Below, in pieces: positions 54,136-57,480 of a stretch of 64,000 nucleotides of DNA; the stretch's first letter is position 1; each line of letters opens with the position of its first letter. Location of the stretch: positions 1-64,000 of the forward strand of contig JAJFGW010000023.1 of the NCBI GenBank assembly GCA_021775915.1, read 5' to 3'. The notes under the pieces are model-generated. The model made no database searches, was not told the DNA's origin, and saw nothing but the letters and a program-made list of their open reading frames with translations. The position numbers were made by a program, and so were the translations under genes. The stretch comes from Alphaproteobacteria bacterium (GTDB taxonomy: Bacteria; Pseudomonadota; Alphaproteobacteria; Micavibrionales; Micavibrionaceae).

Positions 54136-54450
54136 ATGCTGAGTAAAACTATCATCAACACCGAAAACGAAATCAACTCCCTGATACCTGATAAATGGAT
54201 TTTGGGAACGGGGTTAAGCACCAACAGCCTGTATATCACGCACACAGACAAACCGTTAATGATTGTTCAGTATCCAATGGATGAGGATAATCGGGAAGAA
54301 GCGGCCTGTACCGTATATATCAAGGGCAAAATCAAACCTAAAATTCTCAACCAACTCTTTGCCGAAGCATGGGAGCTGATTGAAATTTATAAAACCCGCT
54401 TTGACGATCTCGGAATTGACACAAAAGATTCTCCCAAAAGCGTGACATGA
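54136..54450 (+). CDS. Unknown protein just upstream of the reverse transcriptase
   Basis: A 104-residue soluble protein of mixed alpha/beta character (MLSKTIINTENEINSLIPDK..., LFAEAWELIEIYKTRFDDLG), no recognised family. A GAGGGACAC-type ribosome site lies before the ATG. Only nine bases separate it from the reverse transcriptase, so it is a candidate accessory of the DGR; the sequence alone cannot show that. Confidence 0.6.
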   Translation: MLSKTIINTENEINSLIPDKWILGTGLSTNSLYITHTDKPLMIVQYPMDEDNREEAACTVYIKGKIKPKILNQLFAEAWELIEIYKTRFDDLGIDTKDSPKSVT

Positions 54451-54459
54451 GGTGCGGCC

Positions 54460-55584
54460 ATGGACGCGCGCCTTACCATCGAAGCCGTATTTGATGCATA
54501 TTTTGACTGCCGCAAGGAAAAGCGAAACACCATCAATCAACTGCGTTTTGAAGCGAATTTAGAAAGAAACCTTGTCCAGCTATACAATGATCTAAAAGAC
54601 GGCAGCTACCAAATCGGGCGCAGTATTGCCTTTGTCATTACACATCCTAAAATTCGGGAAGTATGGGCGGCGGATTTTCGTGATCGTGTCGTGCATCATT
54701 TGGTTTATAACGCTATTTCAGAAAAATTTTACAAGCGGTTTATTCGTGATAATTATGCCTGCATTCCGGGCCGAGGAACCCATGACGGTATGCGCCGAGT
54801 GTCGCAATTTGCCCGCTCAATAACAAATGAATGGACGCAACCCGCTTATTTTTTGAAGGCGGATGTGGCCAATTTCTTCAAAACTATTGATAAGCTGGTA
54901 TTACTTGATCTGGTGAAGCCGCATGTAAGCCAGGAATGGGCTTGGAGTCTGATTGAGCAAATTGTCTTGCATGATCCGCGTTCAAATTTTGTCATGCGCT
55001 CCCCGCAATCCCTATTTGATAAAGTTCCACTGCATAAAAGTCTTTTTAATGCCGCTAAAAACAAAGGGCTTCCCATTGGCAATTTGACCAGCCAGTTTTT
55101 TGCCAATGTTTATATGAATGAGCTGGATCAATTTGCAAAGCATGTTCTTAAAGCCAGATATTACGCGCGCTATGTTGACGATATGGTGTTGTTTCACGAA
55201 GATGCTGGCGTATTGAATGACTGGTATGTGCAGATGGATGAATTTATAAAAGACAAGCTGGCTCTGCATCTTCATCCAAACAAAAAACATATCAATCTGG
55301 CCGATAAAGGCATAGATTTTACAGGTTTCATCATCAAGCCGGGACGCACCTATTTGCGGCGGGCAACTTTGGCTACATGCAAGCAAACAATTCGGCAATG
55401 GGAGTTGCAAGGTTCGCCGGTTGATACGGAATCTTTAGACGATTTGTCCCATAGCATGAACAGCTATTTGGGAATGCTTCGGCAAGTAGATGGGTTCAAA
55501 GCCAGAAAATCTTTATGTAAGCGGATTGAAAGCCTGTTTTTAACCGCTGATGAGGATTGCACAAAAGTCATTTCAAATTTATAA
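54460..55584 (+). CDS. DGR-type reverse transcriptase
   Basis: A 374-residue reverse transcriptase. The palm has the first catalytic Asp in FLKADVANFFKTID (D135), the DGR-type motif KGLPIGNLTSQFFANVYMNELD near 202-224, and the active-site YVDD at 238-241 in ARYVDDMVLF. No maturase or nuclease domain, so it is not a group II intron. The size and the IGN-x-TSQ motif fit DGR enzymes, which copy the template repeat with errors at adenines. A GAGG seven bases before the ATG supports the start. It lies on the strand opposite to the template repeat, avd and target. Confidence 0.95.
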   Translation: MDARLTIEAVFDAYFDCRKEKRNTINQLRFEANLERNLVQLYNDLKDGSYQIGRSIAFVITHPKIREVWAADFRDRVVHHLVYNAISEKFYKRFIRDNYACIPGRGTHDGMRRVSQFARSITNEWTQPAYFLKADVANFFKTIDKLVLLDLVKPHVSQEWAWSLIEQIVLHDPRSNFVMRSPQSLFDKVPLHKSLFNAAKNKGLPIGNLTSQFFANVYMNELDQFAKHVLKARYYARYVDDMVLFHEDAGVLNDWYVQMDEFIKDKLALHLHPNKKHINLADKGIDFTGFIIKPGRTYLRRATLATCKQTIRQWELQGSPVDTESLDDLSHSMNSYLGMLRQVDGFKARKSLCKRIESLFLTADEDCTKVISNL

Positions 55585-55620
55585 AACAGGATCAAGAAAG
55601 GGGCATCCAACTCCGCAGGG

Positions 55621-55771
55621 GCGACAGGGCGAGACGACGAATGATCGTGGCCCTTATGGTCCCAATTGTTGTCACCGTCCGTGAAGTCCACGCTATACAC
55701 GTTGGAGCGGTTGTCCGGGTTCTCAGTGGCCGTAAACTGCCAATGAGCGTTGCCGGAATCGTTGGACGTTT
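55621..55771 (-). repeat. DGR template repeat (TR)
   Basis: Non-coding copy of the variable repeat at 56423-56573. About 37 of its bases are adenine on the minus strand; 12 of these differ in the variable repeat (plus-strand positions 55657, 55660, 55666, 55667, 55702, 55703, 55712, 55721, 55751, 55763, 55770, 55771) and none of the other bases differ. The first 36 bases (its 3' end on the minus strand) are identical and GC-rich, as expected for the initiation-of-homology part. An apparent open frame through it is not a gene. The stretch between the reverse transcriptase and avd (55585-55926) holds nothing else recognised. Confidence 0.93.
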
Positions 55772-55926
55772 GATGGTGATCTCTTGATCGGGCGGGCGAT
55801 TTCTCATCCGCCAAACCTTCCACTTTTCAGTTTCTACTTTGGTATAAATGCCTTTTGGCAAATATACCGCCACCATCCGAGTTGAATAAGCTCACTAGGT
55901 TAAGCCTTGACCTAAACCTATTCCGG

Positions 55927-56274
55927 CTACCCCTTCCTCGAACTTTTGAGCCACCCTTGGGCTTGTTTCCCAAGATTTTCCGTCATTTCGGATAAAGCCG
56001 CATAATGGCGGCGTGGCAATATCTTCATATCATGGGACAAGCGCATTAAAAGTTGCACCGCCTGTATTCGTTCCATGATTTCCTGTATGTGCTGTTCTTT
56101 ATTTTTAGCACTATTGGCCCGATAAATCAAAATCACGATGTCAATCAGCTCATCTTTGATTTTTTGGCCTAACGTGTACTTGTATTCGCGGGGAAAATTC
56201 TTTGTTGCAGTCATTGTACGCAACAAAATGTCGTAAGTTTGTTTATAGATCGGCAAATGTTCGTATTGCGCCAT
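55927..56274 (-). CDS. avd: DGR accessory variability determinant (Avd)
   Basis: A 115-residue all-helical, basic protein (YEHLPIYKQTYDILLRTMTA..., FPREYKYTLGQKIKDELIDIVILIYRAN) of the Avd/four-helix-bundle family related to 23S rRNA intervening-sequence proteins. Avd forms a barrel-shaped pentamer that binds the reverse transcriptase and the template RNA. The conserved FPREYKYTLG segment and its position between template repeat and target make the assignment safe. Start at the ATG at 56274. Lies between TR and target, on their strand. Confidence 0.9.
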   Translation of the reverse strand: MAQYEHLPIYKQTYDILLRTMTATKNFPREYKYTLGQKIKDELIDIVILIYRANSAKNKEQHIQEIMERIQAVQLLMRLSHDMKILPRRHYAALSEMTENLGKQAQGWLKSSRKG

Positions 56275-56386
56275 GATTTACTCAGAAAAACCCTAAAATT
56301 TACGCGAAAATACCGCCTCAAAAAAATTTGAGGCCGCGCTTCGCGCGACCTTTAAATGATTAAATAACTAAATGACTAACGTCCGT

Positions 56387-56404
56387 TCCCTAACAAGTTA
56401 GGGA
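56387..56404. other. DGR hairpin/cruciform element next to the variable repeat
   Basis: Inverted repeat TCCCTAAC-AA-GTTAGGGA: an 8-bp stem with a two-base loop (or 7 bp with a four-base loop). It overlaps the target stop codon and lies 19 bases past the 3' end of the variable repeat in the gene's direction. In the Bordetella phage DGR a short hairpin just after the variable repeat boosts retrohoming, so this is probably the equivalent. Confidence 0.75.
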
Positions 56405-57285
56405 GCCGGAGCGATCTGCAGGGCGACAGGGCGAGACGACGAATGATCGTGGCCCTTACGGCCCCAACCGTTGTCACCGTCCGTGAAGTCCACGCTATAC
56501 ACGCCGGAGCGGTAGTCCGGGTGCTCAGTGGCCGTAAACTGCCAATGAGCGTAGCCGGAATCGTAGGACGTAATGATTTCCTGTCCGCCTTGTGCTTTTA
56601 ATGCGGCGTTAATCTCAGCAACATTTGAATAGAGATTGTTTGCAACCGTAACGTCGCGTGTACCGATCTCACGGCCATGAACAATCTGTTTGGTTCCAAT
56701 CGCCAAACCAGTTGTTACGGCTTCGCCGGATTCATTAGCTTGTTCCCATGCGCTGCGAACTTCTTTTGACCATGCCTGCTCATAAGTCACATCTTCTGCG
56801 CTATCAGGGCGGTCAAAAATCTGCATACCTGTAAGGGCTTGTCCATCTGCATGAATACCGTGATCTTCGCTAATATTTCGGATGCTTACCGTGTCTTCAT
56901 TGAAAGTACCAATGTCACGATTAAAGATTTTGGCTGTATCTTGTGGTGAAACAAGTAATTCAGCTTTCGCCGTATCAGGCAGATCGGACAAATATTTACT
57001 AACCTTATTCAGTTGAATCTGACCGGCCTTTACAACGGCATTGGCAGGATTAAAAGCGCCTGCTGTCGGACTGGACTGGATAACATCTGGTGCGTTTGTT
57101 TGTTCTTCAACGGGAACCTGTTTTGTAACGCGACCGTCACCATTTGTAATGATATTAACGTTTACACCATTCAAAGCGGATACATCGAACGTAAGATCAC
57201 CGTTTTCTGCACGGATCACTGTCACGCCTTTAAATTCACCTCTTAAAGAGCGTTCGGTAACGCCTTGTGTTTCTGCTGTCGCCAT
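56398..57285 (-). CDS. DGR target protein with C-terminal variable domain
   Basis: A 295-residue protein whose last 58 residues contain the diversified region. The first 60 residues look beta-rich (GEFKGVTVIRAENGDLTFDVSALNG), a linker and a helical part (about 75-220) follow, then the variable domain with SYDSGYAHWQFTATEHPDYRSG and HDHSSSRPVAL, a layout compatible with the C-type-lectin fold of known DGR targets. The ATG at 57285 has AGGA eight bases before it; the upstream ATG at 57300 lacks a ribosome site. No signal peptide, so a virion or receptor-binding role fits. The family of the N-terminal part is unknown. Confidence 0.85.
   Translation of the reverse strand: MATAETQGVTERSLRGEFKGVTVIRAENGDLTFDVSALNGVNVNIITNGDGRVTKQVPVEEQTNAPDVIQSSPTAGAFNPANAVVKAGQIQLNKVSKYLSDLPDTAKAELLVSPQDTAKIFNRDIGTFNEDTVSIRNISEDHGIHADGQALTGMQIFDRPDSAEDVTYEQAWSKEVRSAWEQANESGEAVTTGLAIGTKQIVHGREIGTRDVTVANNLYSNVAEINAALKAQGGQEIITSYDSGYAHWQFTATEHPDYRSGVYSVDFTDGDNGWGRKGHDHSSSRPVALQIAPAP
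56423..56573 (-). repeat. DGR variable repeat (VR)
   Basis: The C-terminal coding copy of the template repeat. Compared with it, eight residues have been changed by adenine substitutions: Asn to Tyr (three times), Asn to His, Asn to Gly (twice), Asp to Gly and His to Arg; the last sites, at the repeat edge, lie near GlnThr/IleThr. The unchanged SSSRPV end is the conserved anchor. Confidence 0.93.
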
Positions 57286-57480
57286 AGCTATGTTCCTCAT
57301 TTTAACGCAGTTTACTTGCTTAATGACACTCTTTTAGCGTTTACGGCTCAAGCGCGTCAACCCATTCTCCGTTTTCACGGAAACTTTCTTAATAAAGTAT
57401 TAATGTTTTATAACGGAACATTATGGAATTTGCAAGCTTTTTGTTTAAGAAAAGCATAATTTACTGAAAACAATGCTTTT

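Follow-up and report, generated by a model that had tools for sequence, protein, structure and literature searches.

The window, by which we mean the whole 64,000-nt stretch of DNA analysed, very probably carries a complete prophage-borne diversity-generating retroelement (DGR) whose putative mode of action is derived from that of BPP-1 and from the local anatomy. All parts of the cassette are present: a reverse transcriptase (RT), Avd, TR, VR, and a target gene. It belongs to a Micavibrio-like prophage and represents an independent case of inversion, the RT gene lying on the strand opposite to the other components. A structured leader RNA is located 5' of the TR. An earlier note, made from the DNA letters of this region, had announced a complete DGR; the RT and Avd families, the TR/VR pair, and the RT tree uphold this reading, but the note mentions neither the inverted RT nor the folded RNA preceding the TR.

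The prophage is of siphovirus type and comprises roughly 41 kb, from ~53.4 kb of the window to ~94.6 kb of contig C16, with the DGR at one end. Around the DGR lie a lysis cassette and tail-spike-like genes, and the prophage encodes spanins. Genes for terminase, portal, major head protein, tape measure, and tail fibre J, together with those for primase, repressor, excisionase, and tyrosine integrase, were found further along C16. At the right end of the prophage, the tyrosine integrase is situated beside a large serine recombinase (C16:93234-94556 and 94580-96208, corresponding to L101 9234-10556 and 10580-12208). A search for prophage attachment repeats of at least 14 nt was negative.

Reverse transcriptase, Avd, and target protein

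The RT gene (54460-55584, plus strand) encodes a protein of 374 amino acids with GLPIGNLTSQ and YVDD motifs, which matched the PHROG_1423 profile with 353 bits. Among solved structures, the best match was the 328-amino-acid reverse transcriptase chain of 8ub7 (E 2e-36), which we take to be the bRT of BPP-1, far ahead of group II and retron RTs (group II protein LtrA, E 2e-6). In a tree of 84 RTs, the protein was nested among DGR RTs that have TR/VR pairs of their own. Three other RTs of related genomes, used as an outgroup, likewise left it with the DGRs, on a weakly supported root branch (59/84). The DGR-type RT proposed earlier is thus borne out, and grouping with retrons or group II introns, against which it was to be checked, did not occur. 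The nearest named relative with the same kind of host was from a Micavibrio metagenome-assembled genome (58%). RT and Avd are each encoded by a single-copy gene in the genome.

Avd (55927-56274, minus strand, 115 amino acids) was correctly recognized as the neighbor: it exceeded the cut-off of Pfam bAvd (PF22296, 9e-19; 68.4 bits, cut-off 40) and matched the PHROG Avd family (phrog_3206, 1.9e-30), while scoring 73.4 against NF033474, which has a cut-off of 80. Genome G082 has Avd genes on either side of a single RT, encoded on opposite strands (L138 1152-1497 and 3000-3323); the first seems to be frameshifted, and the genome contains a second DGR RT (L139).

The target gene (56398-57300, minus strand) encodes 300 amino acids. 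The VR is in frame at its 3' end and terminates 23 nt before the end of the open reading frame, in agreement with the original placement of the VR in the C-terminus of a phage-type protein. A profile search gave no Pfam or other family match for the target protein itself, and its AlphaFold (AF2) model was too poor for use (pLDDT 31), so the putative C-lectin-like fold is deduced from relatives: the C-terminus aligns with targets of related DGRs, which match the Lcl_C (DUF1566) domain, above the cut-off in L098 and below it in L005, L008, and L097. Searches of phages, IMG/VR, and PDB gave no usable relatives of the target. Elsewhere in the genome, at G000:C42:51006-51155, weak protein similarity to the variable end of the target was detected (30%, E 0.06), with no DNA similarity to the TR.

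Directly 5' of the RT gene, a small open reading frame of 104 amino acids (54136-54450, plus strand) was found only with convergent cassettes, that is, with those in which the RT gene points toward the TR. Two of 142 genomes of the order possess it, and these are the two with convergent cassettes; three IMG/VR contigs carry it as well, and it is absent from G001. A pattern scan of IMG/VR and a search in phages identified no relatives, and its structure prediction was too poor for use.

Adenine-restricted differences between TR and VR

The best-supported alignment pairs the TR at 55619-55769 with the VR at 56421-56571, both on the minus strand, over 151 nt and without gaps. All 10 mismatches are at TR adenines, of which there are 35 (P = 1.5e-7). 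The interval chosen in the earlier note (TR 55621-55771, VR 56423-56573, minus strand) is this alignment shifted by two bases. Our recount there confirmed the numbers claimed: 12/12 differences fall on the 37 adenines, and the 114 remaining bases are unchanged (P = 1e-8). The gapless, adenine-only pair stands, with boundaries best shifted by two bases: the two additional A->T differences, at 55770-55771, lie beyond the last matching base, where similarity stops, and may be either part of the TR or external to it.

The changes from TR to VR comprise six A->G, three A->T (five with the edge positions), and one A->C. Eight codons are altered, each with a change of the encoded amino acid. The 3'-terminal 23 nt of the TR are free of adenine and identical in the VR, reminiscent of an IMH*. 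TR and VR are direct repeats 802 nt apart, and apart from one 23-nt chance match the VR is the sole other repeat of the TR in the 2.45-Mb genome. Behind the TR follows a short 3' tail (55588-55618, minus strand), which by eye resembles those of L005 and L097 (CCCTTTCT/C.GATC). In control runs, the TR/VR finder recovered BPP-1 with 17/17 mismatches at A and Shewanella baltica OS155 with 17/17 at A, the latter inverted as published.

Recent diversification in sister phages

The IMG/VR contigs L005 and L008 contain the same cassette, with RTs 79 to 81% and Avd 89% identical to those of the window. Their TRs are identical to each other, and their VRs differ from the TR at 21 and 16 sites, respectively, all of them adenines. 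In L097 (genome G033), 12 sites differ between TR and VR, again exclusively at adenines. The alignment of TR and VR in relatives, suggested at the outset as a check, thus returned the adenine-only pattern in all three. Between L005 and L008, a block of 1,982 nt, reaching from within the RT gene to beyond the target gene, contains 18 differing sites, and 18/18 fall within the VR, each corresponding to a TR adenine; up to the VR, the target genes are identical. We conclude from this distribution that a lineage with the convergent layout diversified recently, and the pair demonstrates that DGRs so arranged function in nature.

These data bear on two other explanations. Apart from the existence of the repeat, nothing speaks for a chance repeat or an ordinary gene duplication followed by normal mutation. 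The adenine-only differences (P about 1.5e-7 or lower), the RT and Avd genes adjoining the repeat pair, and the restriction of the differences within the L005/L008 block to VR sites corresponding to TR adenines all argue against it, and the sister comparison reduces its probability to a negligible level. The second holds that the DGR of the window was formerly active and is now silent, its VR differences being old and its inverted RT no longer expressed together with the TR. For the window there is a single VR sequence, and loss does happen: the RT gene of L008 (5001-5904) lacks ~206 nt, which breaks the frame, in a cassette that otherwise matches that of L005 and has a diversified VR. The RT, Avd, and target reading frames of the window are intact, however, the pairing of its leader is kept, and a sister lineage of the same layout diversified recently. 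We therefore regard silencing as quite unlikely and retain a probably functional DGR as the preferred reading.

Repeated inversion of the RT gene

The RT gene (plus strand) converges on the TR and is encoded opposite to TR, Avd, and target (minus strand). The same convergent layout was found in L005/L006/L008 and in L097. The distance from the TR to the RT stop codon is 34 nt in the window and 34 to 39 nt in the intact convergent cassettes. A one-strand layout characterizes the DGR of G001 (L098), which belongs to the same genus, as well as those of G082 (L138) and G363 (L141).

Inverted DGRs have been described before. Schillinger et al. 2012 (PMC3521204) listed three (Group 4) and suggested a single event, and Yan et al. 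2019 (PMC6642488) reported the inverted pattern to be >20 times rarer than the usual one. Like the window, Group 4 elements, such as that of Shewanella baltica OS155, and the G5 cassette of Yan et al. 2019 have the RT opposite to TR, VR, and target. However, a single clade of all inverted RTs, the window included, was rejected (p-AU 2.9e-7), and the close relatives of the window, G001, G082, and G363, are ordinary in layout. On the tree of 84 RTs, at least four changes of RT orientation are needed, or five with the long branch L115. The DGR of the window is therefore independently inverted.

Several further unusual arrangements were noted. L115 (4353-6294), a Bdellovibrio plasmid, carries an RT that is not annotated and an inverted TR/VR pair with 14/14 differences at A, and hence a DGR in another predatory bacterium. 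On an Aeromonas caviae conjugative plasmid (L112, 5001-8176), an inverted DGR has its VR in the gene of a very long Ig-like protein, and its RT and TR are separated by IS-type transposase genes. L054, L058, and L059 represent DGRs of candidate phyla bacteria with TR and VR located on opposite strands.

A structured leader RNA between Avd and TR

The ~160 nt between Avd and TR (55770-55930, minus strand) are predicted to fold into a 5' hairpin followed by a multibranch junction, with a closing stem ending at the TR. In the window, this leader folds far more stably than shuffled sequences (MFE z -4.4; TR alone, -1.0). A consensus from four loci had 14 of 42 pairs altered on both sides, and the covariance model built from these loci matched the window leader with 182 bits and scored 113 to 127 bits on four loci not used in its construction: L138 and L139 (G082), L140 (G106), and L141 (G363). 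The G363 locus was found by the RNA model alone in a search of 385 genomes of the class, and Avd, a TR/VR pair, and an RT are present there. Two weak matches in the same 385 genomes, in G153 and G356 (22 to 26 bits), were dismissed as false, with no RT or Avd nearby.

With all eight loci fitted to the covariance model, 20 of 42 pairs showed double changes, and covariation was 0.494, compared with 0.236 ± 0.021 in shuffles. None of 500 shuffles was as good, and sliding the pairing partners destroyed the signal. A plain MAFFT alignment, not fitted to the structure, also contained compensatory changes, in 21 of 41 predicted pairs. On this comparative evidence we consider the leader to be a new covarying RNA. 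Neither DGRs of Micavibrio nor a leader 5' of the TR turned up in our literature search. RT-k RNAs were reportedly described in a paper from 2017.

The leader shares its fold plan with Rfam RT-15, namely, a 5' hairpin, a closing stem ending at the TR, and three inner hairpins. Assignment to RT-15 failed: the leader remained below the gathering threshold, RT-15 failing to match anywhere in 55300-57400 with the E-value limit raised to 5, and the two covariance models do not find each other, our own model R1 failing to reach RT-15. By score, the leader and RT-15 are not one family. Since the models of the two groups miss each other, it is their position and fold plan that point to possible homology.

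Two halves of the RT tree with RNA on opposite sides of the TR

The RT tree is split, with support of 100/99, into a set of 27 rows containing the window and a set of 57 rows containing BPP-1. In the window set, the gap between avd and TR has a median of 165 nt, and that between TR and RT has a median of 5 nt and is ≤30 nt in 13/14 cases. In the BPP-1 set, the TR-RT gap is at least 99 nt in 52/53 cases (median, 384), and an avd located 5' of the TR and sharing its strand is usually no more than 45 nt away. The division into sets was made with the tree at hand, on loci collected for their similarity to the window RT, and gene ends were estimated for some of the gaps, so the contrast in layout is preliminary. 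The convergent cassettes all fall into the window set; the two inverted cassettes of the BPP-1 set have the RT on the other side of the TR.

Known Rfam RNAs are distributed along the same division. Phage_DGR (BPP-1), RT-14 (BalMu-1 and L009), and RT-9 (L014) lie directly 3' of the TR, whereas RT-15 lies directly 5' of it in eight phage loci of the RT clade that is sister to that of the window. This distribution also bears on whether the RNA between Avd and TR is instead a separate regulatory element of an Avd-TR operon, an attenuator or a small RNA. The leader directly follows Avd, as such an element could. Against it, at most a few nt lie between the end of the closing stem and the TR in the window, L005, and L097, RT-15 extends up to the TR in the phage loci examined, and the Rfam DGR RNAs of the BPP-1 half directly adjoin the TR on the opposite side. 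We think it unlikely that the RNA is a separate element and favor its being part of the template RNA.

In BPP-1 (mtd-avd-TR-brt), the spacer behind the TR serves both to recruit RT-Avd and to prime cDNA synthesis (PMC12875486; PMC8867640). The window shares with this phage-borne system a target gene with a 3'-terminal VR, Avd, TR, a DGR RT, and adenine-only mutagenesis. In BPP-1, however, the RT is encoded on the strand of the TR, avd directly adjoins the TR, and the structured spacer (Rfam Phage_DGR) follows the TR on its 3' side; the window has a flipped RT and its structured RNA on the 5' side. A BPP-1-type spacer, a structured RNA of ~140 nt between TR and RT, is absent from the window, where 34 nt separate the TR from the RT stop codon and the Rfam search gave no match. 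An antisense 3' spacer inside the RT gene was rejected, as synonymous change was not reduced at the 3' end of that gene. The TR of L097 is followed at a short distance by a 13-bp terminator-like hairpin. With the RT gene only ~35 nt away, no synonymous constraint, and this hairpin, little room is left for a 3' spacer of the BPP-1 type, which suggests that the leader or the short 3' tail does the recruiting and priming work.

The RT-15 (RF03018) phages, Pseudomonas phages Cruim01, Haboob, and LPPA56, Shewanella phage QDWS, and Burkholderia phage Magia, resemble the window in their sister RT clade (100/100), in a structured RNA between avd and TR with the same fold plan, and in a TR beside the RT. 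They differ in that their RT is on the strand of the TR and in leader sequences too diverged for cross-detection by either model. We tentatively propose, as a possibility that we rate somewhat below even, that the template RNA is mirrored in one half of the DGR tree: the element recruiting RT-Avd would be 5' of the TR, in RT-15 and its relatives, rather than 3'. cDNA synthesis would consequently be primed differently from that in BPP-1, and the RT gene would be free to flip and would have flipped more than once.

Proposed mechanism

In the proposed course of events, Avd, leader, and TR would be transcribed from the minus strand, and the RT would be expressed separately, along with the 104-amino-acid protein, from the plus strand. 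We infer that RT and Avd bind the folded leader in front of the TR, copy the TR into cDNA, and misread adenines. Exchange of the terminal VR of the target gene for this cDNA would then be directed by the adenine-free 3' end common to TR and VR and by a hairpin downstream of the VR.

Two hairpins are candidates for the latter role. The palindrome TCCCTAAC-TT-GTTAGGGA (56388-56405, minus strand) starts 16 nt after the VR and extends over the target stop codon; it is confined to the window, and 0.5% of shuffles were as good. A GC-rich 9-bp hairpin with a GAA loop (56331-56351, minus strand), 69 nt after the VR and followed by a T-run, has counterparts in L005, L097, L098, L042, L104, and L106. 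Published DGR target hairpins are 4 to 34 bp from the VR and have a GRNA loop (PMC3240598), whereas the conserved hairpin of the window is 69 nt away, and the GRNA loop of known DGR cruciforms was not seen in the hairpins downstream of the window VR. Either of the two may be the DGR target hairpin, and the conserved one may act as a DGR cruciform, a terminator, or both.

The outcome would be a population of phage proteins varying at 8 or more residues of a C-lectin-like domain, which most likely would serve in binding to host or prey surfaces.

Knowledge of how DGRs initiate cDNA synthesis comes largely from BPP-1, where the spacer behind the TR both recruits and primes. If the mirrored arrangement is true, a large group of DGRs with a conserved folded RNA in front of the TR and no 3' spacer would represent a second way to start the reaction. 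The flipped RT of the window and its relatives would make this easy to test, since the RT mRNA is already distinct from the template RNA.
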